DNA from: Paenarthrobacter sp. DKR-5 | Lineage (GTDB): Bacteria; Actinomycetota; Actinomycetes; Actinomycetales; Micrococcaceae | DNA length: 64,000 bases | Direction of reading: 5' to 3' | NCBI RefSeq assembly: GCF_018531425.1 | Contig: NZ_JAHBOI010000004.1 | Location: forward strand, 62,001-126,000 | Shown here: positions 15,262 to 38,214 of the stretch, piece after piece | Layout of the letters: each line of letters starts with the position of its first letter | How positions within the stretch are numbered: the first letter of the stretch is position 1 | Position numbers and translations under genes: made by a program | The notes under the pieces: generated by a model | Database searches by the model: none | Told to the model about the DNA's origin: nothing | Seen by the model: only the letters and a program-made list of their open reading frames with translations

Positions 15262-15356
15262 CCCGGTGTCGCCCCGGCGCGCCCTCGGGCTGGTACGGTG
15301 CCTGTCGGTAGCGCGCCTAGGATGAGGGTGCCGTCCTTGAGATTCTGAGAGGTCCC

Positions 15357-18541: not shown

Positions 18542-18642
18542 GCTTTTACCTTCGCACGCAGCTCCGACAAACCCGCGGAGCGTCGCCCGCATGGCCGGCT
18601 CGGGCACCGCCGGAGGAGGAGGTGCCGGTACAATCGACTACC

Positions 18643-19728
18643 GTGGCTCTTACTATCGGCATCGTCGGACTGCCCAACGTCGGCAAATCAACGCTCTTCA
18701 ACGCACTGACCCGCAACCAGGTCCTCGCGGCGAACTATCCCTTTGCGACCATCGAACCCAACGTGGGCGTTGTCAGCCTGCCCGACCCGCGGCTGGAGAA
18801 GCTGGCGGAGATCTTCGGGTCCCAGCGGATCCTGCCGGCCACGGTGTCGTTCGTAGACATCGCCGGCATCGTCAAGGGCGCATCCGAAGGCGAAGGCCTG
18901 GGCAACCAGTTCCTGGCCAACATCCGCGAGGCGCAGGCCATCGCCCAGGTCATCCGCGTCTTCGATGATCCCGACGTCGTCCACGTCGACGGCAAGGTGG
19001 ACCCGCGCTCCGACATGGAGACCATCAACACCGAGCTGATCCTGGCCGACCTGCAGACGATCGAGAAGGCCGTCCCGCGGATCGAGAAGGAAGTGAAGCT
19101 CAAGAAGCGCGACGCTGCCGAGCTCAACGCGATCCTCAAGGCCAAGGAGGTGCTCGAACGGGGGGACACCATCTTCTCCTCAATCGCGAGCGACAAGCTG
19201 GAAATGGAGCACCTGCGCGAACTGAGCCTGCTCACCGCCAAGCCCTTCATCTACGTCTTCAATGCGGACGAGGAGATCCTCGGCAGTGCCGAAAAGCAGC
19301 AGGAGCTGCGCGACCTCGTCGCTCCCGCGGACTGCATCTTCCTCGACGCCAAGCTGGAGTCCGACCTGGTCGAACTCGAGCCGGAGGAAGCGCGCGAGAT
19401 GCTGGAGATGAACGGCCAGGAGGAATCCGGCCTGGACCAGCTCGCCCGCGTCGGTTTCCACACGCTGGGCCTGCAGACCTACCTCACGGCCGGCCCGAAG
19501 GAGACGCGTGCCTGGACGATCAACCAGGGGGACACGGCTCCGCAGGCGGCCGGCGTCATCCACTCCGACTTCCAGCGCGGCTTCATCAAGGCCGAGGTGG
19601 TCTCCTTCGACGACCTGGTTGCTGCCGGGTCCATGGCGGAGGCCAAGAGCCGTGGCAAGGTCCGCATCGAAGGCAAGGACTACGTCATGGCCGACGGCGA
19701 CGTGGTGGAGTTCCGCTTCAACGTCTAG
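18643..19728 (+). CDS. ychF: Redox-regulated ATPase YchF (Obg family)
   Basis: A 361-residue P-loop NTPase that binds the ribosome and prefers ATP to GTP. G1 GLPNVGKST is near the N-terminus, followed by FATIEPNVGVV and the switch II region VDIAGIVKGASEGEGLGNQFL; the C-terminal TGS domain ends GDVVEFRFNV. The GTG at 18643 gives the canonical VALTIGIVGLPN start. The accessory block begins 5 bp after the stop, and the last 36 bases have a diverged echo at 36619-36653. Confidence 0.96.
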   Translation: MALTIGIVGLPNVGKSTLFNALTRNQVLAANYPFATIEPNVGVVSLPDPRLEKLAEIFGSQRILPATVSFVDIAGIVKGASEGEGLGNQFLANIREAQAIAQVIRVFDDPDVVHVDGKVDPRSDMETINTELILADLQTIEKAVPRIEKEVKLKKRDAAELNAILKAKEVLERGDTIFSSIASDKLEMEHLRELSLLTAKPFIYVFNADEEILGSAEKQQELRDLVAPADCIFLDAKLESDLVELEPEEAREMLEMNGQEESGLDQLARVGFHTLGLQTYLTAGPKETRAWTINQGDTAPQAAGVIHSDFQRGFIKAEVVSFDDLVAAGSMAEAKSRGKVRIEGKDYVMADGDVVEFRFNV

Positions 19729-19733
19729 CACGT

Positions 19734-20157
19734 GGGCACAGCGGACGCCCGGCGGCCACGATCTCCCGGGTGCGCTTGGCGAATGCGCGGGCGGTGTCGA
19801 CCGGCATTCGTACCAGCAACATTTCGAGCTCACCCGCCGCGTCCGCATCCAGCGGTTCGTCGTCGTCATCAGCATCGACTTCGGTGTACGGGTGGGCCTC
19901 AAGGACAACCCGGGACGTGGTCGGGTCCCGCCCCAAGCTCATGGCGCCGGTGCGAAACAGTTCCTGGACGGACTCGAGCTGGTCGTTGTCGACAAGTTCA
20001 ACGGGGGTGGTTGTGGGAACGCTGAACGGGTTGCCCTCGACGGTGAGAAGCTCGTCGAGAATTTCGTCGATTTTCTCCGCGAGCAGAGCCGCCTGCTGTT
20101 TCGCCAGGGCAACGCTCACCACCTGCTTACCTGCGCGCACCTGCAAATAGAACGTGC
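19734..20157 (-). pseudogene. DUF3090 gene fragment, left copy of a 424-bp direct repeat
   Basis: This stretch aligns without gaps to 37718-38141, part of the intact DUF3090 gene. The encoded 141 residues (from TFYLQVRAGKQVVSV to GRPLCP) differ from the right copy at about 8 positions, including the radical changes Glu to Ala, Trp to Arg and Gly to Asp. The first about 25 residues and the last about 18 (with the CGYPMD zinc-like motif) are missing, so it cannot make a normal protein. It starts 5 bp after the ychF stop. Confidence 0.9.
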
Positions 20158-20189
20158 AACGGCAGCGTGGTCGCGAACGTGCCCGGCCG

Positions 20190-20600
20190 CACCAGCCTGG
20201 CCTTCGATCACATACGCTCGGCTCAAAGGTCATGGCCGAAGACAGCACGGGTACGGACCAGGCAGACGGCCAGGTGATCATCACCGACAACCAGGTCACC
20301 CAGGCTGTGAAACCAGGAGCGCCGAGCGGCAAATACACACTTCCGTCTGGCGCATCGTCTCTTCGGACTCGCACCCGATCGAAGGAACGTTCACTCTCAC
20401 CGCGGAGAAGCCGCCCCCGGCTCGCCGGCGGCCGCTGGAACCCACCCCCGGCTGCGGCCGCTCAGCAGCCCGGCGCCGGTCTTCCCTGGGGCGTGATTGC
20501 CGGGGCTCTGATCGTCCTTGTTCTCGTAGCCGTCCTGATTGTCGTCGCCAAACGCCAGCTCGGCCGCCCCGACCGCGAACCCTGGGGCGAACCCAGTCCC
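20190..20600 (+). pseudogene. CopC-domain copper-resistance protein relic, frameshifted and 5'-truncated
   Basis: Pieces of a CopC-like protein can be read across frames: LAFDHIRSAQ, then KVMAEDSTGTDQADG and VTQAVKPGAPSGKYT in one frame, SVWRIVSSDSHPIEGTFTL in another, then a Pro/Ala linker and the C-terminal helix GVIAGALIVLVLVAVLIVV back in the first. The order matches secreted CopC proteins with a C-terminal anchor (PGxPxGxYTV..RVVSxDSHPxxGxFxF). At least two or three frameshifts and loss of the signal peptide and the N-terminal His make it non-functional. Confidence 0.75.
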
Positions 20601-20935
20601 CGTCCGGTTCGCGTTGCACTGCCGCCCAAGGCCGCCGGCTGCTGTGGGCCGGAGCCCGACCTTGCCGCGTAAGCAAGACCACCCGGCAGTTGTCGCCTCC
20701 GGGCCGAAGGGCCGACAACCTGTATCACCTTTTTGCTCAGCAATGTCCGGACAGGGGAGGCGCAGCTCAGAACGACTGAGCCAGAGGCTTATGTGTGTAT
20801 TTGAGTTCGCTCTCGCCCGGCTCGGTTGCTTTGGCCCCGGACCGGCCGCGCGCCGGGGCGAGTCACCCAGTCGCCCTGCGCCGCCAGCCCGGTGTGGTGA
20901 TCCACTGAGGCGTCCGCGCCGTGGTTAGGTGAGGC
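20601..20935. other. Non-coding gap
   Basis: About 335 bp between the CopC relic and the DUF1003 gene. No frame here resembles a known family. The last bases hold the ribosome-binding region of the next gene. Confidence 0.5.
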
Positions 20936-21409
20936 GTGACTGAAGAACAGATGAACTGGCATACCCGGCATAAGAGTTCCTTGAGCTCCGGGCAGCGGGC
21001 CGCGGATGTGATGCGCAACGGCATGGGGAGCTGGCCCTTCGTGGGCGGCTTCATTCTCTTCATGGTCCTGTGGGCTGTGGTGAACTCCATCATCCTGGGC
21101 TCACACGGCTGGGATGCGTATCCCTACATCCTGCTGAACCTATTCCTGTCCATGCTGGCGGGCCTTCAGGGCGCGATCCTGCTGATCGCGGCCAAGCGTC
21201 AGGATGCCATCGCCGCGGCCATGGCCCAGCATGATTTCGACACGAACGTGCGGGCCAAGCAGGAGATTGAGCAGCTAATGGCCATCAACAGGCAACAGCT
21301 GGAGATCCTGCACGAGTTGAGCAGCGTCACCCCCGCCTCCGGCCGCAGGAAGGACATGCATCACCCTGACGGGGACTCACCGGGCACGGAGAAGGGCCCC
21401 GGGTGCTGA
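20936..21409 (+). CDS. DUF1003 membrane protein
   Basis: A 157-residue protein of the DUF1003 family. A short soluble N-terminus is followed by two helices (GSWPFVGGFILFMVLWAVVN and YPYILLNLFLSMLAGLQGAI, about residues 32-50 and 60-85) separated by WDAYPY, then AAKRQD and a cytoplasmic helix with DFDTNVRAKQEIEQL, a strong family signature. The GTG start has AGGTGAGG just upstream. Function unknown; often found with stress or envelope genes. Intact within a block rich in broken genes. Confidence 0.88.
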   Translation: MTEEQMNWHTRHKSSLSSGQRAADVMRNGMGSWPFVGGFILFMVLWAVVNSIILGSHGWDAYPYILLNLFLSMLAGLQGAILLIAAKRQDAIAAAMAQHDFDTNVRAKQEIEQLMAINRQQLEILHELSSVTPASGRRKDMHHPDGDSPGTEKGPGC

Positions 21410-21504
21410 ACGGCGCGGTGCCCTCCCTGTTCCGGAAAAACCAGTGAAATCCGATGATCCGCGGGACCCGGTTCTTGATGCTCCGGCGTCCGGGAGAACG
21501 AGGA

Positions 21505-21800
21505 TGGCCTTGACGGTGTCCGGAAAGAAACAGCGCCATCTCTACAATGCCTCCGACGCAGCCACCCCGCAGCGAGACTCCTCACCCGTGAACTGAATGC
21601 CACAGTTGCGGTCACCGGCGTTTTGGTAGTCGTTGCCCCGAAGAGCATGACCGTCAGGCAGAACCCCTACGAAGGCGCAATGGTCTGAGACCGGCAGCTC
21701 CTGCGGTGGCTCAGCGACCGTCCGAACTTACCTGCGGCCGGGCAGATAGCGGCACACGGCCCGGCACGTGGCACCGAAATCCGCCGGCCGTGGTGGACCC
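21505..21800 (+). pseudogene. NERD-domain (nuclease-related) protein relic with in-frame stop
   Basis: The frame KKQRHLYNASDAA (from 21525) is lost at about 21570 and continues in another frame as AARLLTRELNATVAVTG, then VLVVVAPKSMTVRQNPYEGAMV, a TGA at 21686-21688, and then DRQLLRWLSDRPNLPAAGQI. Read together this matches the end of actinobacterial NERD proteins, in which the TGA would be a Trp or sense codon. One frameshift, one nonsense codon and loss of the 5' portion make this a relic. Family assignment is by remembered pattern. Confidence 0.6.
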
Positions 21801-22021
21801 CGTGTCCTGTCCCCGCAGCACGAATTCGCCACCGGTGCGCAGCAGCGGACACCGGGATTACTCCGCGCCGGCAGAGGGGATCGTCTCTGACCCGCCGGCG
21901 CGCCGCGCGGTGGTCGCAGCAGAGGTCCCTTTACCCCCCTGCTCCCGGCCGATAGCCTGACAGGGGTCCGCGGTGGTGTCATGGCGGCTCGTTCGTTGGC
22001 CCGAGAGGTTGGCTTTCTGCG

Positions 22022-22516
22022 ATGGGATTTGAGGATTCAGAAGAACCGGGTGCGCCGAAGAGGAGTGCTTCGAATGGCGGCGAAACTCCGGGAAGCGATC
22101 AGCGTCAGTCGCTGCAGTTGGCCTCGGCCGTGATGTTCGTGGCTGAACTCGACCGTTCCGTCGCCTTTTACCGGGAGTTCCTGCGATGGGACGTGACCAT
22201 CCACGACGAGTCTGCGGCATTGCTGGTCGGCCCGGACGGATACCAGCTGTACCTGCGCAGCATGGGAGAACGTGCGGAACACCCCTTGGGCAACATTGGC
22301 ATCCAATACCTCATCTGGACCGCCCGGGACGAAGCGGAACTGGACCGCTGCGAGCATGCGTTGCGGAAGCACTCTTCCCGGGTCAGCCGGCGGACAGTAG
22401 AGGGTTTCACCCTGGTCGAGGGGCACGGCCCTGACGATGTGCCGGTGATCGTGACCTATCCGGGACCGGCACAGGCACCCCGGCACGAGATCCTGCAGAG
22501 AATATACCAATGGTAA
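22022..22516 (+). CDS. VOC (glyoxalase/bleomycin-resistance) superfamily protein
   Basis: A 164-residue protein with a single vicinal-oxygen-chelate domain: ASAVMFVAELDRSVAFYREFLRW (read at 22120-22190) is the classic first beta-alpha unit, followed by ALLVGPDGYQLYLR and QYLIWTARDEAELDRCEHAL. The first about 35 residues are polar and probably disordered; a downstream start is possible. Half of the metal ligands of a true glyoxalase are not evident, so it may be a binding or resistance protein. It is intact and orphan. Confidence 0.8.
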   Translation: MGFEDSEEPGAPKRSASNGGETPGSDQRQSLQLASAVMFVAELDRSVAFYREFLRWDVTIHDESAALLVGPDGYQLYLRSMGERAEHPLGNIGIQYLIWTARDEAELDRCEHALRKHSSRVSRRTVEGFTLVEGHGPDDVPVIVTYPGPAQAPRHEILQRIYQW

Positions 22517-22583
22517 AAGGCCAACAGACAGGCCGCTGATCCCCTGCCCATCGGCTTGTAGCCGCCCACCCTGGAAATAGTGG

Positions 22584-23198
22584 CTATCCGGACACGACCT
22601 GCCGCGCAGCGCCGGGCCGCAGTCGGCGCCCGGCCATGATCGTGGGGGCAATATTGCCCTTTTTCACCTCTTGGGCCATGTGTTGTGCGCCGTGTACCAA
22701 ATCCGTACCTCCCGTCTTCAGGAATTGTCCCAGTTGCCCGAACTTCAGCACCGGGGCATCGAGCCGATAGACTCCGCCCGCCGGTCCAACGCCGACGCCG
22801 GTATCGTAGACGAGCTTGCCACCTAGGTAGCTGGTGTACGCCAGGACGCCGGTCCCGATCATCCCCGTGGCGATATAGGCAACGGTCGGCTTCCGGTGGG
22901 TGGTTCGCCATATCGCCATGCCCGCCGCGACGGTGGCGGTGAGGAAATTCAGGTTGCGGTGGGTCATCAGCATGTCCATCGAAGCACCCTGGACGTTGAC
23001 CTCCTCACCTGCGATCAGCCCGGTGACGGCGGAGGCCACGGCGGACGCCGCCGCAATACATACCGCCTGCCTCCCAAACGACAGGAGCGGCTCGTTGTTG
23101 GTCATGCCGGCGATGAGGTCCGCGCCGACCGATACCGGCAAGAATGCGACCGGCACATGGACGAAAGCGGGATGCATCTGTTCCAGGCGTATGGACAC
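22584..23198 (-). CDS. DUF2231 integral membrane protein
   Basis: About 204 residues with four helices. The opening MHPAFVHVPVAFLPVSVGADLIAG (read at 23100-23180) has the HP-x-x-V-H-x-P pattern typical of DUF2231, whose histidines have been suggested as haem ligands; a later helix contains THRNLN. The GTG at 23196-23198 is chosen because GAGGAG lies 8 bases upstream; a GTG 9 bases earlier is too close to it. Function unknown; in other genomes the family occurs near redox or copper proteins. Confidence 0.82.
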   Translation of the reverse strand: MSIRLEQMHPAFVHVPVAFLPVSVGADLIAGMTNNEPLLSFGRQAVCIAAASAVASAVTGLIAGEEVNVQGASMDMLMTHRNLNFLTATVAAGMAIWRTTHRKPTVAYIATGMIGTGVLAYTSYLGGKLVYDTGVGVGPAGGVYRLDAPVLKFGQLGQFLKTGGTDLVHGAQHMAQEVKKGNIAPTIMAGRRLRPGAARQVVSG

Positions 23199-23923
23199 GG
23201 CGTCCACTCCTCAAGAGATTCGAAAAAGGCTAACGGTATTGCGGACCGAAATTACTTGATCCGCATAAATCCGGCCTGCCAGGGACCGGTCATCCAAACA
23301 TACGCCGTCACGGCCTCCCCCGGGCGGCTTCCCACAGTCCCGGCCCTCCTGCCCCACGCGGTAGGCGACCGTGATCATCCCGCAGCCCGTGTCGTCCGCC
23401 GTCCTCGCGCTGCTCGTCGCGGGAGAGACCTTCCGTCGTGGCGCCTGCCGCCTGGCGTGTTCGGCAAGGGCGCGCCGAACGCTCCGACTCCGTCGACCGA
23501 CGGAGGGTCTCTTTGAGGTCCTTGACCGGCTCGGCTTCGACCTGTCGCCGGGCGGCGATGTCGTCCAGCTGAGGGGTGCACGTTCCCCGATGCTGCAAGG
23601 CGGCACCCGCAGGTTGTCTGCTCTGTCCACCTCGGACGCGTGCAACACTTACTCGACGGCGGCGGCCCGCCGGGCATGCGTCTGCTCCCTTTCGTCCAAA
23701 CAAGTCCGTGCGTCATCACCCGGCCCTGAACCATTCCGCCGGCACCGAACCGGCGCCGGTTGGGCGCCGGCTCGAGTCTGATAGCGATCCAGTGCACCCT
23801 CTCGGGATCGGGAGAGCATAATGTCACCGAGGACGAACTCCCACAGGGGTTTCGCCGCTTCGGGCGTCATGGTTCCAAGGAAGGTATCTGCGCCTAGCCG
23901 TAAGTCAGCGAGGAGGACAGGGA
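23199..23923. other. Gap without a recognisable gene
   Basis: About 725 bp. Several frames are open on both strands, but none shows a family motif. A minus-strand stretch at about 23785-23920 reading FLGTMTPEAAKPLWEFVLGD has protein-like composition and may be a remnant; I cannot name it. Bases 23905-23923 hold the GAGGAGG ribosome site of the next gene. Confidence 0.4.
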
Positions 23924-24286
23924 ATGTCGACTGCAACGGATGTTCAGGTGCGCCGGGTCTACGATGCGACCAGGGACGACGACGGCATACGGGTTCTGGT
24001 AGACCACACCTGGCCCCGCGGTATGACCAAGACCAAGGCGGCACTTGACGAGTGGTGCAAGAACGTCTCCCCGTCAACGGAGCTGCGCAAATGGTATGGC
24101 CACGATCCTGCCAAATTCGACGAATTTGCCAAGCGCTACAAGGCTGAGCTTAGAGATCCGGTCAGGGCGCAGGCGCTTGAGCATCTGCGCGAACTCGCCA
24201 TGGGCCAACGACTGACGTTGCTTACGGCAACCAAAGCCGCCGACATCAGTGAGGCCTATGTCCTGGCCGATCTGATCGGACGGTAG
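23924..24286 (+). CDS. DUF488 family protein (YeaO-like)
   Basis: A 120-residue protein of the DUF488/YeaO family: VRRVYDATRDDDGIRVLVDHTWPRGMTK (about residues 9-36) with the DHTWPRG variant of the usual DRLWPRG motif, then WCKNVSPSTELRKWYGHDP and RYKAEL. The C-terminal LTLLTATKAADISEA matches the family's usual end. A strong GAGGAGG precedes the ATG. It is a small cytoplasmic protein of unknown function, intact. Confidence 0.9.
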   Translation: MSTATDVQVRRVYDATRDDDGIRVLVDHTWPRGMTKTKAALDEWCKNVSPSTELRKWYGHDPAKFDEFAKRYKAELRDPVRAQALEHLRELAMGQRLTLLTATKAADISEAYVLADLIGR

Positions 24287-24929
24287 TCACCTTAGGTCGG
24301 GCGCACCCCAAGAGAGGGACTCCCGGAAGGAACCGATCAGTGGCTGAGAGCGGGACAAACGCCGGCGCGGCCGGAGCTGATCCCGCCAGGCGGCGAGCAA
24401 TGCGCATGGCGCGAGGATCGTGGTCCGGATGGACCGATCGGACGAATCCCCGGCCGCTTTGCACTCGGCCGTTCCAGAAGCGCGGATCCACGGCGTCGGT
24501 CTCCATCCGCCGATCAGCAAGACAAGGATACTCATGGGAATGTTCGCGATTGCCGCCGGTTTCTTTGCTCGCGGCTAAGAATCCAGCGCACACCCCCGTA
24601 CGGACGGGCAGGGGTCCCGCGTCCCCCAGGTGCCGCCCAACCAGGCGCGCAGCTCAGACAGCGCCCAAACGATACGTGGTGCCCGGCCGCGCCGCACGAA
24701 GGACAAGCGCGCGGATCAGTGAGTTGGCGCCCTCACCAATAACATCATCAAACGCCGGGTTCGCCAGACAACCACAAATAAATGTTTCCGCAGGTCGATC
24801 GACGGTATGCCGGCTCCGGTACAGTCCGCAGGATGCCGGTGCCAGGTGCGCCACCGCGTTTCTTACCTCGCGCCCGCTCCTCGTGGAAGGTTCCGGGATT
24901 CCGTCGGACATACCGGTGCGGGCATGATG
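24287..24929. other. Gap without a recognisable gene
   Basis: About 640 bp between the DUF488 stop and the oxidoreductase stop. Open frames exist on both strands but have low-complexity Arg/Pro/Ser composition and no motif, and I see no convincing ribosome site. Confidence 0.45.
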
Positions 24930-26726
24930 CTAGATGGATTGGCGGTAGCCGAAGAATTCGTGGTCGTTGTTGTACCCGCCTTCGCCGCCTCCGATTTGGG
25001 AAAAGTCTTTGACGAATTCGATGCCTTTGATCCATTTAACGAGTTTGAAGCCGAGTTGGACTTCGTTGCGCAGACGCAGTGGAGCGCCGTGTCCGTAGGA
25101 CAGCGGCGCATTGTTCATGTCGTACGCGAGCATGGTGAGGTGGTAGCTCATCTGTTCGATCGGTTGCGCGTCATAGTAGATGCCGCCGTCGGATCCTTCG
25201 GCGAAGGAGTAGAAGATCACCCAGTTCGCCTCCGGGTCTGGCTGCACCAGGTCGATGATGGTCTGCATGGAGACGCCCCCCCATTTGGCCACGCCGGACC
25301 AGCCCTGGATGCAGAAGTGCTGGGTGATCTGCTCATGGTGGGCCAGATCGTGAAGCTGGGCCAAGTCTAGTTCCACCGGGTTCTTTACGAGGCCGGAGAC
25401 CTGGAGACGGTAGTCGGCGAAGCCTGTGGCCAGAAGCGTTTTGTATTCAGTGGATTCGGGATACTTGCCGTTGTGCCACATATACGGGGAAATGTCTTTT
25501 TCGGTGTACCGACCCGGTTTTGAATCGAGGTGCTCGAACAGCCGTTGCGCCGGGCCGATGAGCGCAAACCCGATCCGCTGGACCATCCGCGGATGCCGGT
25601 AGGTGAGCGGGGTGACGCCCACCCAGATCACGATCATTATGGCCAGGGATGCGGCGAAGACCCAGAACCCGTACCAGTCGCCGGAGTTGCGGTCCGCGTA
25701 CATGTAGTTGAAGTTCCGCAGCGCCTCTGTCGCGACGACGAGGGAGACGTGCATCACGATGAACAGCACGAACCAGACCAGGACCAGGAAGTGCAGCGAC
25801 CGGGCGACCTGGATGCTGAAGACCCTGCTGATCCACCTGAATTTTGTGGACAATGCCGGCGACATGCCCAGCCCTGTGATGAACGCCAGCGGCGCGGCGA
25901 TAAAGACCGTGATGAAGTAGGCCATGACCTGGAGACTGTTGTAGGCCACCCAGCTGTCGTCGGTTGGCCAGTTCAGGGAGGCATACTGGATGGACATCGA
26001 GAGAGCATTGGGGATGACGTCCCAATCGGTGGGCACCAGGCGGAGCCACTGACCCGTGGTGAAGATGAGAATGTAGAAGATCAGGCCGTTGAGCAGCCAC
26101 AGCGTGTCCATACCCAGGTGCCACCAGCGTGCCAGCCCGATCGAGTGCCGCCGGCCCGGCAGGCCCACGCCATCGGGGAGGGTGATGGAGTCCTGCTTTG
26201 CCGTGTACAGCGGGTCCGCGGGTACCGGCGTCTGCATCCGGAACCATTCCTTGCCCGGGGTTGAGTGACGGGTCCAGTACAGCCGGGGATGATCGGCAAG
26301 GACGGCTAACCCTGCCCGGATGATGGGGATCAGGAGCAACATGTTGAAGAAATGCTGCCACCCGATCCAGACAGGGAACCCGGCGCGGCCTTCGGCCCCG
26401 GGCGGAACAACCCGGCCTGGATACTGTCTGATGAACTCCGCCACGGTGGGGACACTACGCAGTCCCTTGGCGACGGCCACGGCCGTGATCAGCAGAACGA
26501 AGCCGATCGGCAGTAACCACAGCAGGTTAAACCATTTGCTTTTCCCTATGCGCACCCGCGGCGCCACCCCGAATTGCGCAGGGGCAGACCCGGCCCAGGA
26601 GTCATCGACGATGGTGTTCGCTTCCGTTGAGAGCTCCTCCCGGAAGCTGGCCGGCCTCCGCGCGCCCGTGGCGGAGACAGCAGACCGGGAACCGTCCGGG
26701 TTGTCCTGATTATCGTCACGTGCCAC
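24930..26726 (-). CDS. Cytochrome b561-like / molybdopterin (sulfite oxidase-type) oxidoreductase fusion
   Basis: A 598-residue fusion. After a soluble about 65-residue N-terminus come six or so helices of a di-haem cytochrome b-like domain (about 68-390), with His residues in GWQHFFNML, ARWWHLGMD, ARSLHFLVL and VMHVSL as haem-ligand candidates. The C-terminal part (about 400-598) is an oxidoreductase molybdopterin-binding domain: HFCIQGWSGVAKWGG holds the Mo-ligand Cys, and NNAPLSYGHGAPLRLRNEVQLGFKLVKW is the family's substrate-pocket segment. The GTG start has GGAGG 6 bases upstream. It probably links electron transfer in the membrane to a YedY-like Mo centre; substrate unknown. Confidence 0.88.
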   Translation of the reverse strand: MARDDNQDNPDGSRSAVSATGARRPASFREELSTEANTIVDDSWAGSAPAQFGVAPRVRIGKSKWFNLLWLLPIGFVLLITAVAVAKGLRSVPTVAEFIRQYPGRVVPPGAEGRAGFPVWIGWQHFFNMLLLIPIIRAGLAVLADHPRLYWTRHSTPGKEWFRMQTPVPADPLYTAKQDSITLPDGVGLPGRRHSIGLARWWHLGMDTLWLLNGLIFYILIFTTGQWLRLVPTDWDVIPNALSMSIQYASLNWPTDDSWVAYNSLQVMAYFITVFIAAPLAFITGLGMSPALSTKFRWISRVFSIQVARSLHFLVLVWFVLFIVMHVSLVVATEALRNFNYMYADRNSGDWYGFWVFAASLAIMIVIWVGVTPLTYRHPRMVQRIGFALIGPAQRLFEHLDSKPGRYTEKDISPYMWHNGKYPESTEYKTLLATGFADYRLQVSGLVKNPVELDLAQLHDLAHHEQITQHFCIQGWSGVAKWGGVSMQTIIDLVQPDPEANWVIFYSFAEGSDGGIYYDAQPIEQMSYHLTMLAYDMNNAPLSYGHGAPLRLRNEVQLGFKLVKWIKGIEFVKDFSQIGGGEGGYNNDHEFFGYRQSI

Positions 26727-26888
26727 GGTGTGCCTCCGGTCGTTGATGCCCGTGCGGCTTCCGGGGATGCCTGGTGCCTGATGCTCAGATTACGCTTCAC
26801 CCGTGGACAGGCAACGAAAGATCCGGGATGACGGGCGCAAAGTCCCTCAGCGCGGGTCGAGAGGCTGCTGACTAGGTACGCGGCGGTA

Positions 26889-27246
26889 ATGGCGGGCTGG
26901 GGCCAGCGGGTTGACCTTTTCCCACGCGGTCGTACACTCACAGGTGGGGCCGCCGTCAGACCACGTACGGAGTGCATTCTGTGTGCCGCCTGCACGGGCG
27001 CCTGCCCCGTCTTCTGGACCGACGGACAATACTTCGGTCCAGCGGCGATCGTGAACGCCCACCGCTCGCTTCATCTTCGACTCCCGCGACGACGCCGGCG
27101 ACTTGCGCCTTCAGGTCCTTAACGACAAGGAAGGTGTCTGGCGGTGCCGCACCGTTTTCAATTGCACGGAGGCTTGCCCGCGTGGCATAAAGGTCACTCA
27201 GGCCATCGCCGAGGTCAAACAGGCGATCCTCTCCCGGCGGATATGA
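26889..27246 (+). pseudogene. Succinate dehydrogenase/fumarate reductase iron-sulfur subunit (SdhB) relic
   Basis: The C-terminal half of SdhB is readable in two frames: ECILCAACTGACPVFW and YFGPAAIVNAHR from 26970, then, after an apparent 4-base insertion at about 27066, RFIFDSRDDAGDLRLQVLND, VWRCRTVFNCTEACPRGI and VTQAIAEVKQAIL, ending at TGA 27244-27246. These are the [4Fe-4S] and [3Fe-4S] cluster cysteines of actinobacterial SdhB. The N-terminal 2Fe-2S ferredoxin domain is absent. It is convergent with the aconitase gene, another TCA-cycle enzyme. Confidence 0.9.
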
Positions 27247-27298
27247 CGCTCCGGCGCCGGCGGGCACCCGGCTTGGCGGGGGCCGCCGGCGGACCGCG

Positions 27299-30828
<3,530 letters not shown>

Positions 30829-31044
30829 ATGGTGAGTAAGCCGCGGTTCGTCGACAAATTCATGCACGCGACGAACCATTTCAGGGCCGTGTTCGGGCCG
30901 GCCGACAGGAGCGACGCAAGCACGCCGGTCCTTCATAAGCACGACAATGCCGAAATGGCGTCGGAGGATCAACTCGCTGACATAGAGGTGGAACGGGACC
31001 CGCAGGGCCATGTTTGGGCGGAAGACAAGAAGCACGAAGGCTAG
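30829..31044 (+). CDS. Small hypothetical protein
   Basis: A 71-residue hydrophilic protein, KPRFVDKFMHATNHFRAVFG near the N-terminus and an acidic/basic C-terminus (ADIEVERDPQGHVWAEDKK). No domain is recognised. The ATG is preceded by GGAGG 9 bases upstream, which is the main reason to call it. The antisense frame here is the out-of-frame tail of the truncated transporter and is not credible. Confidence 0.5.
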   Translation: MVSKPRFVDKFMHATNHFRAVFGPADRSDASTPVLHKHDNAEMASEDQLADIEVERDPQGHVWAEDKKHEG

Positions 31045-31129
31045 AAACTGGCCTCCACCGTCTTCCGGGGCGGGATCATCGTTTGGGTATCGCGGAGCCT
31101 CTTGGCTGACCGACGCAGGGCCCTTTGTC

Positions 31130-31611
31130 CCGAGCAGGATCAGGATCGTGACCAGGTGCCGGTCGCTGATCTGCACATCCTGGGCCGAGACGGCGGCTAC
31201 CGTGACGAACGCTGCCACACCGGTTACGCACAGGGCGACGGAAGTGATGACCCGCGGTCCGGGGGACGTGCGGGTCGCCCATACTGTCGCGAGCGTGGTC
31301 ACGACCAGCGCCACCGCACCGATGGGTTGCACCACGATCAGCGGTGAGAATCGCAGGCTGGTGAGCTGCAGCAGGATCGCGGCGCCCAGCATCACGGTTC
31401 CGGCCAGCCAGACGGGTTTGCGCAGGAGCGCCTGCAGGCGTCCGCCTCCCATGCTCCCGGGGCCCCGTCCCTGTGCCGGGCCCTCGTTCTCGACTCCGCG
31501 GTGCTGGAACATCGTGCCCAGCGCCAGCAGCACAGCCCCGGCCACGGCAATCGGAATGCCCAGCCAGTGGTACGACGTCAGGGCCCGCTCTGCGGCAGCG
31601 ACCATCATCAC
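31130..31611 (-). pseudogene. Truncated DMT transporter, left copy of a 527-bp direct repeat
   Basis: The first about 160 residues are the same as those of the complete transporter at 33700-34632 (SYHWLGIPIAVAGAVLLALG through DRHLVTILILLG), after which homology stops abruptly at 31130 and the frame runs into unrelated sequence. The duplicated DNA spans 31130-31656, matching 34151-34677 with one mismatch noticed (31646). Loss of half of the helices should abolish function. Confidence 0.9.
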
Positions 31612-31679
31612 ACCACCCTACCCACCAACTCCCGTTGGGCCCGACCGGGCGGCAACGTCCTCAGCCACGAACGCAGCCG

Positions 31680-32003
31680 CTAGCCTTCGGCTCGGTGGTT
31701 TCCCGCTGTGATCGAAGCGAGGTCCCGCCGGAACGATTCGGGTTCATCGGTCACCGGTAGGTCGACAGTGTCCTTAGCCGCGTCGAGTGATTCGGTTGAG
31801 TCCGGCATGAGTGAGGTGAAGAGGGTGCTGAGGTCTTTTGGTTCGGGTCCGTGGTCGGCGATGAGTTCGAAGGTTTTGTGGTCGGCGGCGTCGATGTGGA
31901 GGCTGTCGATGGTGACGCGCGCGATCTGGTGGCGCCATCTGAGTTTACCCGCACGAACCGGGCCGGGCCGTCCCGCGGGCCCGGGCCGGGCGGACATGGG
32001 CAA
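31680..32003 (-). CDS. Hypothetical protein fragment
   Basis: Up to 107 residues; the last 82 (from QIARVTIDSLHIDAADHKTF through EPESFRRDLASITAGN) show strong coding bias and an acidic, helical composition, while the N-terminal 25 residues are Pro/Gly/Arg-rich and probably not native. I do not recognise the family. It begins just after the truncated transporter copy and may itself be the 3' end of a lost gene. No good ribosome site is seen. Confidence 0.4.
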   Translation of the reverse strand: MPMSARPGPAGRPGPVRAGKLRWRHQIARVTIDSLHIDAADHKTFELIADHGPEPKDLSTLFTSLMPDSTESLDAAKDTVDLPVTDEPESFRRDLASITAGNHRAEG

Positions 32004-32560
32004 CGGGGAAGGACCGGGATGCTCTTCCTCGTTGACCGGATTCTCAGGCGCAAGTCCTTGGCCGGCCCGACCTCAGGCCCGTGTCCCGCCGCTTCGGTGG
32101 GCGCCTCCCGCTCCGCCGCGCAGCAGGGTCACCACATGTGCGTCCAGCTACCGCTGCAGGTGACGAGCAGCCGGAACGGCGTCTGGTCCACCGTGTAACC
32201 TTCCAGCGCATACACGGTGCCGGGACGGTCCGCCAGTCCTGTTCAGGAGGTCAGGATCCGGTGTTCACGCCTACGGGCATCGAGCAGCCGATTGTAGCTG
32301 CAGAAATAGCGCCGTTCCAGGAGTTAGCAGCGTCACGTTGGGGTGCCCTTGATATTGGCCCTGAAGGTTTCGGGCGCAATGTCCCTCGGTTCCGGTTCAT
32401 GCTCTGACTTGTTGGGGAAAATTCGCCGGGGCAGTTCCCGTTTCGGCACTCCTTTCGGGCGTAATCTGAGGGGAGGGAAGCATTTTTCCTTACGTTTCTT
32501 CCGCCCCGCATGACGTGCCTGCGCAGCGGTCATTTGACCAACGACGCCGGAGAGGCAGCA
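32004..32560. other. Gap without a recognisable gene
   Basis: About 560 bp. A minus-strand stretch (about 32150-32215: YALEGYTVDQTPFRLLVTCS) and a plus-strand stretch (about 32270-32400: LDIGPEGFGRNVPRFRF) look protein-like but are short and interrupted, so both may be relics. Bases 32550-32556 (GGAGAGG) serve the next gene. Confidence 0.35.
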
Positions 32561-32842
32561 GTGATTACCATGCACATCAAGGAACAATGGAGCCGGCTGG
32601 ACGCCGCAACGCAGCAGTGGCTGATGGACAACCCGGGCAGCCAGGTGCTGCCGCGAACAGTGACGGCGACCATCAATAAGGAAACCGGCGAGAACGCCGA
32701 CGTTGACCTCCACGGCGGAACGCTGCTTACCGAGGAGGACAGGGAGTTCATCCAGGCCAAGGCGCGCGCGGCGAAGAGTGCCCGGGAAGCGAGCAGGACC
32801 TGGTCCTCGGCGCACCGCTTCTTCGACGCCGTCGGCCACTAG
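32561..32842 (+). CDS. Small hypothetical protein
   Basis: A 93-residue hydrophilic protein (MHIKEQWSRLDAATQQWLMD, then a central strand-rich VLPRTVTATINKETGENADVD and a C-terminal helix with ARAAKSAREASRTWSSAHRF). The GTG at 32561 follows GGAGAGG by 5 bases; the ATG at 32570 is the alternative. No family recognised. Codon use is like that of real genes. Confidence 0.6.
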   Translation: MITMHIKEQWSRLDAATQQWLMDNPGSQVLPRTVTATINKETGENADVDLHGGTLLTEEDREFIQAKARAAKSAREASRTWSSAHRFFDAVGH

Positions 32843-32873
32843 CCCACCGTCCACTGAGCCGTCGGGCCCGGAG

Positions 32874-33281
32874 TCATCCTCTCTTCTGCGCGGTCCGTTG
32901 CCTGCGGGCCTGCGACCTCAGCTGGATGATCCTGGCGGCGCCCGAGGCGGCGACCAGCACGCCTCCGGCGACGGCTGCGATGAGCATGGCCATGCCCAGG
33001 GGGAGGGTGCCGTCGAGCCCGAGGAAGAGGATCCGGGCCTGCTGTTGATTCTGCAGGATGAAGATGATCAGCAGGATCAGCGCCACGAGGGCCACGACGA
33101 CGGCGACCCACACCACGCCGGCACGCGTCGGCCGCGGCTTCGCCGACTCAGGCGGTGGGAGGGCCGGACCCTGAGCCGGTGCAGCGGCCGGCACTGCGGC
33201 CGAGGGCGCTGGAGCAACAGGTGCCGCAGCGCCCGTGGGCTCCGCGGGCGGATGGTCGGGAATGGATGGGGTGGACGTCAT
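32874..33281 (-). CDS. LapA-domain (DUF1049) membrane protein
   Basis: A 135-residue protein: a Pro/Ala-rich cytoplasmic N-terminus (1-50), a first helix (about 54-76, GVVWVAVVVALVALILLIIF) followed immediately by ILQNQQQARILFLG, the hallmark of LapA domains, then a second helix (about 92-114) and a basic C-terminus. Proteins with this domain are associated with envelope assembly in Gram-negatives; in actinobacteria the role is unknown. Intact, with AAAGG before the ATG. Confidence 0.87.
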   Translation of the reverse strand: MTSTPSIPDHPPAEPTGAAAPVAPAPSAAVPAAAPAQGPALPPPESAKPRPTRAGVVWVAVVVALVALILLIIFILQNQQQARILFLGLDGTLPLGMAMLIAAVAGGVLVAASGAARIIQLRSQARRQRTAQKRG

Positions 33282-33308
33282 GGTGGTTGCCTTTCTGCTT
33301 GGCAGGTC

Positions 33309-33560
33309 TCAGCGGGGCCGGTACTGGTCAGCCACCGGACATTCGAAGGGTCCGCCGGCGGAGAGGCCTACCTCGTTGAGGTACCGGACCAGGATGGCGT
33401 AGGACGCGAGCAGGCTGGTCTCGGTGTAGGGGATGCCCTGCTCCCGGCAGCAGGCCCGCACCGCCGCGGCGGCCCGGTGCAGGTAGGGCCGCGGCATGGC
33501 GAAGACTCGCTGCCGGTGCCCAGCCCGAAGGTGATGGTCCACCGCGGCCGAACCGTCGGT
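33309..33560 (-). pseudogene. Fatty acid desaturase relic (C-terminal end)
   Basis: The readable part runs from VDHHL through FAMPRPYLHRAAAAVRACCR, EQGIPYTETSLLASYAILVR, YLNEVGLSAGGPFECPVA to the stop. This matches the end of acyl-lipid desaturases, where QIEHHLFPSMPRPNL is followed by a helix with YTETSL. Between the His pair and MPRP the sequence is scrambled, and the catalytic upstream His boxes and membrane helices are absent. Family assignment is by pattern. Confidence 0.65.
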
Positions 33561-33699
33561 ATGTGGTCTTCCCGGGATCACTACGGCCACCGCCGCAGTG
33601 GCCCCTATTGGGGGCACGACCAGCGGCGGCGCCCAGAGCGTGTCTGTCCCGGTCCAGCGTCCGCAATAATGATGGCGGTGCGTGGCCGGCGGGTGGTGC

Positions 33700-34632
33700 T
33701 CACCTCCGACGCGGCTCGGCTTCTACTTCGGAAGCGGGTTTGGTTTTGGCGGTGGAGAGCACGATGACGCCGGTGACGGCGATGGCACCGGCGAGGGCGA
33801 AGCCGATGAAGGCTTGCGGCGGTGCGGCGTCTGCTTCGCCGAGGACGGTGATGCCGATCGTGACAGCAACGAGGGGGTCGATCACGGTCAGGCCCGCGAC
33901 GACCAGTTCCGGTGTGCCGCGGGCATGCGCGTTCTGCACCATGAAGGTGCCGAAGAGGGCCGCGGCGGCCAGACCGGCGAGGCAGGTCAGGGAGAGCCAT
34001 TCGAAGTTGCCTTGGAAGAGTCTGGCAATCACGGTCTTGGCCAGCGCAGCGACGAACCCGAACAGGGTTCCGGCCGCGCCGGTGAAGACGACGGCGTTCC
34101 ACCGGCGGCGATATAGACCGTACCCGGTCCCAAGCACGGTGAGAACGACTCCGAGCAGGATCAGGATCGTGACCAGGTGCCGGTCGCTGATCTGCACATC
34201 CTGGGCCGAGACGGCGGCTACCGTGACGAACGCTGCCACACCGGTTACGCACAGGGCGACGGAAGTGATGACCCGCGGTCCGGGGGACGTGCGGGTCGCC
34301 CATACTGTCGCGAGCGTGGTCACGACCAGCGCCACCGCACCGATGGGTTGCACCACGATCAGCGGTGAGAATCGCAGGCTGGTGAGCTGCAGCAGGATCG
34401 CGGCGCCCAGCATCACGGTTCCGGCCAGCCAGACGGGTTTGCGCAGGAGCGCCTGCAGGCGTCCGCCTCCCATGCTCCCGGGGCCCCGTCCCTGTGCCGG
34501 GCCCTCGTTCTCGACTCCGCGGTGCTGGAACATCGTGCCCAGCGCCAGCAGCACAGCCCCGGCCACGGCAATCGGAATGCCCAGCCAGTGGTACGACGTC
34601 AGGGCCCGCTCTGCGGCAGCGACCATCATCAC
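33700..34632 (-). CDS. DMT-family (EamA-like) transporter
   Basis: A 310-residue protein with about ten helices arranged as two repeats. The N-terminal half is identical to the truncated copy at 31130-31611. It ends in a charged tail (KTKPASEVEAEPRRR). It starts as GTG-ATG-ATG (34632, 34629 or 34626), so the exact first codon is open. Such transporters export or import small metabolites or drugs; the substrate is unknown. It is intact and is likely the source of the partial duplicate. Confidence 0.85.
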   Translation of the reverse strand: MMMVAAAERALTSYHWLGIPIAVAGAVLLALGTMFQHRGVENEGPAQGRGPGSMGGGRLQALLRKPVWLAGTVMLGAAILLQLTSLRFSPLIVVQPIGAVALVVTTLATVWATRTSPGPRVITSVALCVTGVAAFVTVAAVSAQDVQISDRHLVTILILLGVVLTVLGTGYGLYRRRWNAVVFTGAAGTLFGFVAALAKTVIARLFQGNFEWLSLTCLAGLAAAALFGTFMVQNAHARGTPELVVAGLTVIDPLVAVTIGITVLGEADAAPPQAFIGFALAGAIAVTGVIVLSTAKTKPASEVEAEPRRR

Positions 34633-34677
34633 ACCACCCTACCCACCAACTCCCGTTGGGCCCGACGGGGCGGCAAC
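34151..34677. repeat. Direct repeat, right copy (matches 31130-31656)
   Basis: About 527 bp near-identical to 31130-31656 at a constant offset of 3021 with one mismatch noticed (34667). It covers the 5' half of the DMT transporter gene plus about 45 bp upstream. The flanks do not match, so this is a segmental duplication in direct orientation. Confidence 0.92.
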
Positions 34678-34869
34678 ACCGGCGAGCACGCCCTGCAGAA
34701 GGAATTGAGCAGGCTTTCCGGGTCGCCGTGAAAGGGGTTGGTGAACCGGCGCACGAGTGAGCGGGCCAAAGGAATCCCGGGCGGCGAGTTGCGCATCGAC
34801 TCCGAGGCGGCGCCGGCTGCTCGTCACCTGCAACTAACGCCAGGCTCGCCCCCGGCCACGCAGCCGGGG

Positions 34870-35087
34870 CTAGTTCCCGGAGGCCGGCTCCATGTCAGCG
34901 TCGCGCACCCGGAGGACTGCCAAAGGGAAGCTGCTTCCAGGCAGAACGAAGGCGACGTGTACGTCGTCTCTCCGTATATCGTCGAATCAACGTGTGCGAT
35001 GGTGCCCTTGGTAGCCGCCGGGATCTTTACCTGCCGATATGGCCTGAGCTCACGGCGCGCGGTGACCCGGTCATTGAGGTTGAACAT
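34870..35087 (-). pseudogene. Small SH3-like protein with a one-base frameshift
   Basis: The first 44 residues (MFNLNDRVTARRELRPYRQV, then ATKGTIAHVDSTIYGETTY) resemble small actinobacterial proteins with an SH3-like fold. After ETTY the frame breaks; inserting one base at about 34955 restores VAFVLPGSSFPLAVLRVRDA and a stop at 34870-34872, giving about 72 residues. GGAG lies 5 bases before the ATG. Either a recent inactivation or a sequencing error. Confidence 0.5.
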
Positions 35088-35430
35088 CCAAACTCCGATC
35101 CCAGCTGATGATCAGCCACCGGTCGTGCACATCCCGATTTTAGGACGGAGGTGCCCCGGCACACCACACCTGCCCTGCCCATTCGTCCCGCGATTCCTCG
35201 ACGCAACACCCCACGCGGGAGCGGATGTGAAAAAAACTTGAACGCGAAGGCGACCCTGTCCTCCGCGCTTTGGTGAACTCCCGGCCGGCTGAGTGCCGCG
35301 CCGGGGGTTCTGGCCACCGGCCCCCAAGTGCTTTTCCTGCTTTTGGTGGGACAATAGAACAAGGACATACGCCACGGCGCCGACCCGGTGCCGGCTCGTC
35401 CCGCTTGATAAGACCAAGGAGGGGATCCTG
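35088..35430. other. Intergenic gap upstream of the slipin gene
   Basis: About 340 bp. No gene is recognised. The 3' end carries AAGGAGGGG (from about 35415), the ribosome site of the slipin gene. The promoter could not be located with confidence. Confidence 0.5.
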
Positions 35431-36246
35431 ATGGACCCCACCATTATTGTCATCGTCATCGTCATCGTGGTCCTGCTGCTCATGGTCGCGAAAATGTCGG
35501 TCCGGATCGTGCGCCAATACGAAAAAGGTGTCCTCTTCCGGCTCGGCCGGGTCGTAGGTGTCAGGGAACCCGGTCTGCGCCTTATCATCCCGCTCATCGA
35601 CCGGCTGCCTCTGGTGAGCCTTCGGATCGTCACGATGCCCATCCAGTCCCAGGGAATTATCACCCAGGACAACGTGAGCGTCGATGTCTCCGCCGTGGCG
35701 TACTACCGGGTGGTCGACGCCGTGAAATCTGTCGTCGCAATTGAAAACGTCGCCGCCGCCATCAACCAGATAGCCCAGACCACCCTGCGGAAAGTCGTCG
35801 GCCGCCACACCCTGGACCAGACCCTCTCCGAAACCGAGCGGATCAACAGCGACATCCGGGAAATTCTCGACGTCCTTACCGTCGAATGGGGCGTCGTCGT
35901 GACGCTCGTGGAACTCAAAGACATCCAACTACCCGAAACCATGAAACGCGCCATGGCCCGCCAGGCCGAAGCCGAACGGGAGAAGAGGGCCAAGATCATC
36001 GCGGCAGAAGGCGAAGCAATCGCCGCCACAGCCCTCGGAGACGCATCCGACACCATGATGGCCCACCCGCTGGCCCTGCAACTAAGGAACCTGCAGTCTC
36101 TGGTCGAGATCGGCGTCGACAAGAACACCACCGTCGTCTTCCCCGCCCCGCTCATGAGCACCATCGGGGAACTCTCCGCATTCTTGGCCCGGGAAAATCA
36201 AGCAGCCGCATCCCCCAACGGCAGGACACCCGTCAAAGCCGCGTAG
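35431..36246 (+). CDS. SPFH/band 7 family protein (slipin)
   Basis: A 271-residue membrane-associated scaffold protein. One N-terminal helix (about residues 4-22, rich in Ile/Val) is followed by the SPFH domain: [30 protein letters not shown] and [18 protein letters not shown], then a coiled-coil [20 protein letters not shown]. This is the slipin/stomatin pattern. The ATG at 35431 has AAGGAGGGG upstream; an earlier frame start at 35293 lacks such a site. Slipins often pair with an NfeD protein; none is seen next to it. Confidence 0.92.
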
Positions 36247-36384
36247 TACTCCGTGCCGCCGCTGTGCCGCGCAATCCCAGCGCCTCCAGCGCCGGCACAG
36301 CAATGGCAATCGGTGCCCGGTTCCTCGTTACCTTTTTCGTGGCCCGGTCTTGTGGGCAGAATGCGGGTGTGTTGGTCAGTCAGT

Positions 36385-36552
36385 ACCGCTCAGCTCGGCG
36401 TCCTGTGCCATTTCGATCACGGCGTCGCCGCCCGGATTATCGCGACCTCCAACCGGGTCCGTGCGCGACTGACCCAGATCCACACGGCACTGGAACGGGT
36501 CCCCTGAGTGCGCATCTGGATCACCGCGCCGTGGCCGTTCTACAGCCTTTCG
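36385..36552 (+). pseudogene. IS110-family transposase relic
   Basis: A short fragment reads AQLGVLCHFDHGVAARIIAT, SNRVRARLTQIHTALERV, then after a frameshift at about 36505 continues SAHLDHRAVAVL. This matches the middle of IS110-type transposases (the region with IRGLLTQIHPALERVLGPRLDHPAV). Both ends are missing, including the RuvC-like DEDD and the C-terminal Ser domain. It is the only mobile-element trace seen in the accessory block. Confidence 0.6.
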
Positions 36553-36618
36553 TTTATCTCGGGGTGTACCCGCCGTTGCCACCGTGGACCGGACGGGTCG
36601 AACCAGAGGTTATTCCGC

Positions 36619-36653
36619 GACGGAACGTGGTGAAATTTAGATTCAATGTCTAG
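36619..36653 (+). repeat. Diverged copy of the ychF 3' end
   Basis: This 35-base stretch aligns to the last 36 bases of ychF (19693-19728) with 28 identical positions and one missing base. It encodes NVVKFRFNV plus stop where ychF has DVVEFRFNV plus stop; most differences after the gap are synonymous and AT-richer (TTT, AGA, AAT). Possible left-over of an attachment site or of a second ychF. Confidence 0.55.
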
Positions 36654-37090
36654 GTCCTGACCTCCCTGAAACCTCTTCCGCATGACCGCTAGGAACACGT
36701 GTTCTTGCCGGCCATGCGCTTCTGCGACTCCTTGCCAACTGAAAATGATGCCGTCAGCATTTTCCGTATAGCGGATGACGGTCCGGTGTTTGAGTGACAG
36801 AACCAATCAACCGGACCGCGCCCTCTGCCGCCCAGGACCCCAAACCCAGGAAAGTTCCTCTCGCCGCCAACGGTGAATGTCGCCGCGTTGCGGTTAGGCA
36901 TCTTGTTTGGGTGTGGTTCATCGGCTCCGTTGCGGTGAGCCACGGACGGGCAGCCGAGCGGGATCGGCGCGATGGGTTCCCTGCGGTGCCCGGGCCAGCC
37001 GGGCCCTTCTCCTCTGGAACCGGTCATGCCACCTGCCTAGCGTCGGAGTACGAAGACGGGAGACCGTCCATATTGAGGGAGTTAATAGCA
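36654..37090. other. Gap between the ychF echo and the SRPBCC gene
   Basis: About 440 bp. An upstream in-frame extension of the SRPBCC gene is open from 36794 but has no family character and no ribosome site, so it is treated as non-coding. GAGGGAG at about 37075 serves the SRPBCC gene. Confidence 0.45.
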
Positions 37091-37659: not shown

Positions 37660-38214
37660 TCAGACTTCGGGAAGGGTGCAGGTATGCCCGCCGGCGTCCA
37701 TGGGGTAACCGCAGAGCGGGCACAGCGGACGTCCGGCGGCCACGATCTCCCGGGTGCGCTTGGCGAATGCGCGGGCGGTGCCGACCGGCATTCGTACCAG
37801 CAACATTTCGAGCTCACCCGCCGCGTCCGCATCCAGCGGTTCGTCGTCGTCATCAGCATCGACTTCGGTGTACGGGTGGGCCTCAAGGACGACCTGGGCC
37901 GTCGTCGGGTCCCACCCCAAGCTCATGGCCCCGGTGCGAAACAGTTCCTGGACGGAGTCGAGCTGGTCGTTGTCGACGAGCTCAACGGGAGTAGCCGTGG
38001 GAACGCTGAACGGGTTGCCCTCGACGGTGAAAAGCTCGTCGAGAATTTCGTCGATTTTCTCCGCGAGCAGAGCCGCCTGCTGTTTCTCCAGGGCAACACT
38101 CACGACCTGCTTCCCTGCGCGCACCTGCAAATAGAACGTGCGCGCCCCCGGGAGGCCAATGGTGCCAACGACGACCCGATCGGGCCAGGCAAACTCGTGA
38201 ACACGTGGAGGCAT
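37660..38214 (-). CDS. DUF3090 family protein
   Basis: A 184-residue actinobacterial protein: MPPRVHEFAWPDRVVVGTIG, then GARTFYLQVRAGKQVVSVAL, a central acidic stretch (TEVDADDDDEPLDADAAGE) and the C-terminal ending LCPLCGYPMDAGGHTC, which resembles a small zinc knuckle. In most actinobacteria this gene stands next to an SCO1664-type and an MSMEG_4193-type phosphomutase gene; neither is here, so this is an orphan copy. Its middle 424 bp (37718-38141) are repeated at 19734-20157. Confidence 0.9.
   Translation of the reverse strand: MPPRVHEFAWPDRVVVGTIGLPGARTFYLQVRAGKQVVSVALEKQQAALLAEKIDEILDELFTVEGNPFSVPTATPVELVDNDQLDSVQELFRTGAMSLGWDPTTAQVVLEAHPYTEVDADDDDEPLDADAAGELEMLLVRMPVGTARAFAKRTREIVAAGRPLCPLCGYPMDAGGHTCTLPEV
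37718..38141. repeat. Direct repeat, right copy (matches 19734-20157)
   Basis: Gap-free match to 19734-20157 at a constant offset of 17984, in the same orientation. It brackets the accessory block on the right, as the left copy does on the left. Protein-level identity over the repeat is about 94%, so the copies are not recent. Confidence 0.9.

Follow-up and report, generated by a model that had tools for sequence, protein, structure and literature searches.

Why should the end of ychF, the gene of a conserved GTPase, be repeated far downstream of the gene itself, and what does the repeat represent? In the stretch of 64,000 nucleotides from Paenarthrobacter sp. DKR-5 analyzed here (the window), ychF occupies positions 18622–19728 of the forward strand, encodes an intact C-terminus (GDVVEFRFNV followed by a stop codon) and is the only ychF of the genome at E≤1e-100. 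An initial annotation reported a repeat of the ychF tail 16.9 kb downstream, identical at 28 of 35 positions, with mostly synonymous changes and the same stop, and proposed integration of an element at the ychF 3' terminus, with paired gene ends as its trace. The repeat (hereafter, the echo) was confirmed as described, the synonymous character of the changes holding over the last eight codons. The integration reading is supported by related genomes; the window keeps attR only.

The ychF echo in the window

Alignment of positions 36619–36653 with the final 36 bases of ychF gives 28 identities at 35 aligned positions, with one gap and the same TAG. The end of the echo (36653) lies 16,925 bp from the end of ychF (19728). 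The last eight codons read VKFRFNV-stop in the echo and VEFRFNV-stop in ychF, with one amino-acid change and the others synonymous, and a one-base gap in the echo breaks the frame further upstream. Taken on its own, the tail match exceeds chance and is moderately, not overwhelmingly, significant: its local score is 19, compared to 14 for the next best place in the window and a maximum of 16 in 40 simulated first-order Markov windows. An equally good match to the tail elsewhere, which would have refuted the proposal, was not found in the window.

The echo is considered real because a foreign arm, just outside the coordinates first reported, matches a sequence that recurs in several genomes. Positions 36605–36630 correspond to AGAGGTTATTCCGTGACGGAACGTGG with one mismatch (0 in 100 shuffles); other genomes have AGAGGTTATTCCGTGACGGAACGTGG ahead of their echoes, and it is not found in ychF. 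The site's diagnostic portion reaches 14 bp further left than reported. The echo is read as an attR on the forward strand (36605–36653), consisting of a 22-bp P arm to the left of the echoed tail (36605–36626; not present in ychF, one mismatch to the multi-genome site), an 8-bp centre (36627–36634) with a GT at 36630–36631, and the ychF-like tail up to the TAG at 36653. The corresponding predicted attB core is contained in the tail of ychF (19699–19728, forward strand), with a predicted crossover dinucleotide GT at 19705–19706 that is inferred from the attP symmetry in two related genomes (G093 and G193, see below).

Downstream of the echo, the sequence from 36654 to about 36720 includes a terminator-like palindrome around GAACACGTGTTC (36679–36718) and is of the type located directly 3' of ychF in G099, G043 and G048, so that relatives with ychF followed directly by such a palindrome do exist. 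The palindrome was considered as proof of a displaced native flank and dropped, since similar palindromes follow internal array sites in L063 and L099. Further downstream is an intact DUF3090 gene (37660–38214, reverse strand), a gene that neighbours ychF or the distal echo in many relatives.

The left end of the region is different. A truncated copy of the DUF3090 gene (19734–20157, reverse strand), about 95% identical to positions 37718–38141 of the intact gene, is found directly after the ychF stop, with no attL or element end; DUF3090 copies thus flank both ends of the accessory block. This block (20158–36604) encodes a DUF1003 protein, a molybdopterin oxidoreductase, a Band_7 protein and others, has no relatives among the fetched loci besides short matches, and contains no recombinase that could be seen. 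No large serine recombinase (LSR), attL or P' half was detected in the window. A search of the window's own genome for an LSR was also negative at E≤1e-30, a cut at which the same search missed a clade member in G049. The strict site count in this genome is one. The window is likely a relic with attR only: it has lost the LSR and kept an intact ychF, and the left end shows rearrangement. Movement of the 17-kb block as one element is not shown, as its left end bears the truncated DUF3090 copy in place of attL.

Two other features of the region were noted. A direct repeat, at least 300 bp long and 100% identical, is found at positions 31130–31429 and 34151–34450 (3,021 bp apart) and corresponds to two NIPA/DMT-like transporter gene copies, one of them truncated. 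The fragment at 36393–36535 (forward strand), which is called IS110-like after the name given in the initial annotation, was described as lying just upstream of the echo. It does adjoin the echo and has no visible part in the insertion: support for a role in the mechanism is lacking, and its only match is one of 143 bp in L146 (74% DNA identity).

Sites, recombinases and cassettes in related genomes

A DNA search with positions 36560–36720 gave matches in 46 of 197 family genomes, some of them representing ychF itself with its downstream region (G099 and G048). In 20 stretches around the matches, additional ychF tails come after ychF, in some genomes as a row of several, and each tail has on its 5' side a conserved arm near AGAGGTTATTCNGNNACGGA that is missing from ychF. 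A 46-bp site (up to 3 mismatches) was located at 61 places in 44 of the 197 family genomes. Among 394 class genomes it is present in 3, one of which is that of the window; the reversed-pattern control gave no hits in either set. Two or more strict sites are present in 8 of the 44 genomes, with eight in G164, and a looser tail search reveals longer rows. An exact-pattern scan of 84,980 species genomes returned 26 stretches, from Arthrobacter, Pseudarthrobacter, Kocuria, Nesterenkonia, Brevibacterium, Demequina, Acidipropionibacterium and one further member of the Micrococcaceae.

Islands adjacent to the ychF stop in other genomes, which the integration proposal calls for, were found. All 48 sites that share a contig with ychF (of the 61) are downstream of it on the ychF strand, at 0.9–41 kb (median 6.6 kb); six others are on different contigs and seven have no listed ychF position. 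Plasmids and phages were not identified as carriers: a blastn search with a 49-base site gave tail matches only, in three plasmid and four phage records, none covering 80% of the site, and among viral contigs the strict site was found in no stretch and the tail alone in five. The DUF3090 neighbourhood is often located between two sites, like an old cassette (L058:16336–19107, L057, L060, L063 and L068).

A linked integrase was found in relatives as an LSR and is connected to the window, where it is absent, by inference. In viral contigs L104 and L106, an echo-type site is located within about 70 bp of a gene for an LSR with PF00239 and PF07508 domains, and the L106 protein as a query detected relatives in 52 of 197 family genomes. 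LSR genes adjoin sites in L104, L106, L102, L150 and L151; the gene start in Brevibacterium casei (L102) and a strict site are about 20 bp apart. An LSR is present downstream of ychF within 70 bp in G015, and at 4.4 kb in G122, 5.0 kb in G054 (a fragment), 6.6 kb in G193, 8.0 kb in G198, 10.1 kb in G140, 10.6 kb in G164, 10.7 kb in G045, 11.9 kb in G148, 14.4 kb in G093, 18.8 kb in G111 and 36.3 kb in G210. G187 has its LSR on a 9.6-kb contig terminating in an echo, and an altered ychF on another contig. The G049 LSR is near ychF, downstream of it, and beside a site, yet was missed at the E≤1e-30 cut. G054 additionally contains, besides a full ychF, a second partial ychF (residues 220–368) directly before the LSR fragment (L154:9404–9850 and 14357–15451).

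These LSRs form a clade. In a 36-row tree, the 16 linked LSRs fall on one side of a branch with support of 100/100, and none of 500 shuffles was as low (an earlier 35-row tree contained 15 linked LSRs). Linkage was established for 13 through ychF (for G187, through the altered ychF on another contig) and for three (L102, L104 and L106) through an adjacent site only. The 20 comparison LSRs are those with fetched loci rather than every listed match. The position of ychF is listed for 17 of them, none within 150 kb on the same contig; it is unlisted for G059, G064 and G040. In draft assemblies, a location on different contigs does not rule out closeness. A clade LSR was detected in at least 4 of the 44 strict-site genomes (G164, G111, G093 and G049) and not in the remainder, by a single-query search able to miss divergent members. 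Two 328-residue frames in Acidipropionibacterium (L095:3172–4158 and L096:5954–6940) start 2 bp from a site and are weakly LSR-like (E about 1e-14, no Pfam model). They were not counted as LSRs; in a quick tree they split the linked group (long branch), and they were left out of the 36-row tree.

The attachment sites can be deduced from altered YchF ends. In seven genomes (G164, G111, G093, G210, G045, G199 and G141), YchF ends in EFRHGITSAxQGKK instead of EFRFNV, and this extension is encoded by GTTCCGTCACGGAATAACCTCT or a near variant, the reverse complement of the arm AGAGGTTATTCCGTGACGGAAC. Therefore, the arm, the 8-bp centre GTGGTGGA and the complementary arm together constitute a palindromic attP. 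The ychF ends of other carriers include EFRSGLTSGGKK, EFRTGLTSGSKK, EFRFNATGSGNK and EFRHNTTSGGKAK. Both element ends could be reconstructed in two genomes only. In G093, joining the flanks yields DGDVVEFRFNV-stop, an intact ychF tail, and attP is symmetric at 22 of 27 positions; the symmetry in G193 is weaker (15 of 30 positions). The two attP sites are centred on the same GT, which is the putative crossover dinucleotide, inferred from sequence alone. The rewriting to EFRHGITSAxQGKK in LSR-type insertions is seen at L140:537–600, L163–L166, L175 and L176. Insertion thus rewrites the C-terminus of a universally conserved GTPase.

The tails at the sites are preserved as coding sequence. Among sites defined by the arm only (up to 5 mismatches), 55 of 69 encode VEFRFNV-stop, and codon differences among arm-defined sites comprise 213 synonymous and 46 nonsynonymous changes, compared to an expected ratio of 15:57 for random single changes. 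Many of these 69 loci were fetched by tail-containing queries; outside the ascertained anchors, VEFRFNV-stop is encoded at 12 of 20 sites. We infer that the tails have served as the real end of ychF, consistent with elements that supply a new tail on insertion into ychF.

Successive sites delimit 76 intervals in 62 stretches, with a median length of 2.0 kb (range 0.5–17.9 kb). L079, L080, L087, L097 and L101 were omitted because they overlap included stretches. As the window block, the DUF3090 neighbourhood and at least one LSR element are counted among the intervals, the set is not cleanly LSR-less. One interval of 1,166 bp, core to core, is common to L072, L082 and L098 (99.9% and 95.6% identity). 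A 1.21-kb HigBA interval is 97.0% identical between G195 and G128, from different genera, versus 81.7% for their ychF DNA. Of the 17 HigBA-type left ends, 15 have TTTAACGT (TTTAACGTnTAG or similar) before the stop; the cassette follows an intact ychF in L019, L023, L040 and L053, of which L023 represents another family, and follows arms elsewhere. Among the proteins chosen for analysis, cassette genes encode HigB, HEPN, HepT, nucleotidyltransferase, YjdM, GNAT, ThsB-like TIR and PDC-S56 proteins, and cassettes of toxin-antitoxin or anti-phage type (HigBA, MNT/HepT and ThsB-like TIR) are bounded by tandem sites without an LSR. The chosen proteins of LSR-bearing regions include EcoRI-type and D12 methylases, McrBC, Fic, a TnpB-like protein, GmrSD, a GajA match at 2e-176 and a Type IIG enzyme. 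At L058:3391, 9920 and 15060, the ATG of a YjdM gene overlaps the tail (TTCAATGTCTGAC), such that the start codon is inside the site.

Proposed mechanism and rival explanations

The echo is likely the attR scar of an LSR-mediated, site-specific insertion into the 3' end of ychF. In the proposed mechanism, the LSR would cut at the central GT of GTGGTGGA, and recombination of attB (in ychF) with attP would generate attL, a ychF with an altered C-terminus, and attR, an arm followed by the ychF tail, as in the echo. In many LSR-less elements, the left end is itself a ychF tail; their insertion would restore both YchF and the target, so that further elements could stack. Rows of sites would require such target-restoring elements, moved either in trans as hybrid-site cassettes or by hitch-hiking with an LSR element. 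The movement of cassettes is inferred from sequence alone, no excision or integration having been observed. Several observations count against the attR reading: the window lacks an LSR, attL and a P' half, and its block starts with a DUF3090 fragment; a clade LSR is known in only 4 of 44 strict-site genomes; VEFRFNV-stop is encoded at only 12 of the 20 unascertained sites; and attP symmetry in G193, one of the only two genomes with both ends reconstructed, reaches no more than 15 of 30 positions.

Two explanations for the rows remain in contention, and the data do not decide between them. In the first, which stands at just under even odds, cassettes move singly in trans: a circle with a hybrid site (arm plus ychF tail) would recombine with ychF and restore both, in an integron-like manner. 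This is favored by the LSR-less cassettes with sharp core-to-core borders in differing contexts, such as the 1,166-bp cassette, and by the occurrence of the HigBA cassette after intact ychF as well as after arms. However, a reaction between attB and a hybrid site is not the classical serine-integrase reaction (PMC3783163), and no circle was seen. In the second, on which the balance tips to the negative side, a ychF LSR element excised from attL to a more distal attR would carry the intervening cassettes and re-integrate elsewhere. All reactions would then be classical (attP with attB, attL with attR), attL and an LSR element in G164 are followed by a row of attR sites, and multiple attR sites are also known in ECC (PMC6222049). 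Hitch-hiking alone, however, does not account for a small cassette acquiring an arm of its own.

It is unlikely that the sites are old attR scars whose cassettes now owe any shuffling solely to homologous recombination, across the repeats of roughly 50 bp or via flanking conserved genes. Most strict-site genomes have no detected clade LSR, and the left end in the window resembles an ordinary rearrangement involving the DUF3090 copies. On the other hand, the repeats are short, borders are at the core, and the cassette identity is 97% against 82% for ychF.

Insertion by a tyrosine integrase is very unlikely. A precedent is the Streptomyces satellite phage MulchRoom (L103:7339–7379), in which the ychF tail MQDGDVVEFRFNV and its stop are next to a tyrosine integrase and likely represent an attP for ychF; viral contigs L107 and L108 are similar. 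However, those sites keep a ychF-type left side rather than the foreign arm, and none of the PF00589 matches examined in 17 genomes is near the arrays, so that, by those matches, these are not tyrosine-integrase islands. G208 and G159 have only two PF00589 matches each, which we take to be XerC and XerD. That the echo arose by chance, or by partial duplication of ychF followed by decay, is suggested by the modest tail match alone (19 against a simulated maximum of 16) and is all but excluded by the arm left of the tail, which is foreign to ychF and found repeatedly in other genomes.

A bolder reading, offered tentatively and with more doubt than belief, is that ychF in Actinomycetota anchors a serine-integrase counterpart of the integron, with a ychF-specific LSR acting in trans on hybrid-site cassettes. 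If true, each insertion would rebuild YchF and its own target, and defence and toxin-antitoxin cassettes would accumulate with no upper limit and pass from one genus or family to another. A 35-base oddity has led to an insertion locus that recurs in Actinomycetota, for which the recombinase clade can be identified and the att sites are exact. The locus provides a list of cassettes to mine, including McrBC, GmrSD, a GajA homologue, a Type IIG enzyme, a ThsB-like TIR protein, MNT/HepT and HigBA. The clade would offer new serine integrases with a conserved target for the engineering of actinobacteria, and movement in trans of small recombinase-less cassettes becomes testable at ychF.

Comparison with known systems

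Other elements are associated with ychF. MulchRoom shares the ychF integration locus and an attP-like ychF tail and differs in its tyrosine integrase; ychF is not mentioned in the relevant passages of the MulchRoom paper (PMC10690885). Pneumococcal prophages are located upstream of ychF (PMC6375853, PMC8637289), at the other end of the gene. No paper linking a serine integrase to the ychF 3' end was found in the open-access literature searched.

The ychF system resembles phiC31/Bxb1-type serine-integrase elements in having an LSR beside a palindromic attP; in two viral contigs (L104 and L106), a clade LSR is present at the site. An LSR with resolvase and recombinase domains next to an att site is present in related loci, not in the window; attL and attR that rejoin to an intact target, with a palindromic attP, are present in G093 and, more weakly, in G193. 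In contrast to these elements, the ychF system has tandem LSR-less cassettes and gene-restoring hybrid sites. Integron arrays also consist of rows of small, promoter-poor-looking cassettes in one orientation, with toxin-antitoxin genes and accretion at a fixed site. The ychF site, however, is a gene end plus an arm, its target is a housekeeping gene, and no tyrosine integrase is near the arrays among the PF00589 matches examined.

A close parallel is to SCCmec of staphylococci and ECC, the Enterococcus Cassette Chromosome. They, too, have an LSR and variable cargo, with attB lying in a conserved gene's 3' end, att repeats of roughly 50 bp, several attR sites, and an inverted repeat in attR and the circular form (PMC6222049). 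Recombinase-less cassettes have been reported in the SCC field (PMC3637587), and the combination of several attR sites with such cassettes is also found in the ychF system. The recombinases are distinct: the best scores of Ccr models against five clade LSRs are 60–82 bits, compared to a CcrB cut-off of 900, and these five do not qualify as Ccr. The ychF system also differs in its target (the 3' end of ychF rather than rlmH), its hosts (Actinomycetota rather than Firmicutes), its single LSR gene of another clade, its rows of small cassettes, and one attP form that lengthens YchF. By analogy, the ychF system likely follows an SCC-like plan without being a member of SCC, and would represent an SCC-like lifestyle outside Firmicutes.
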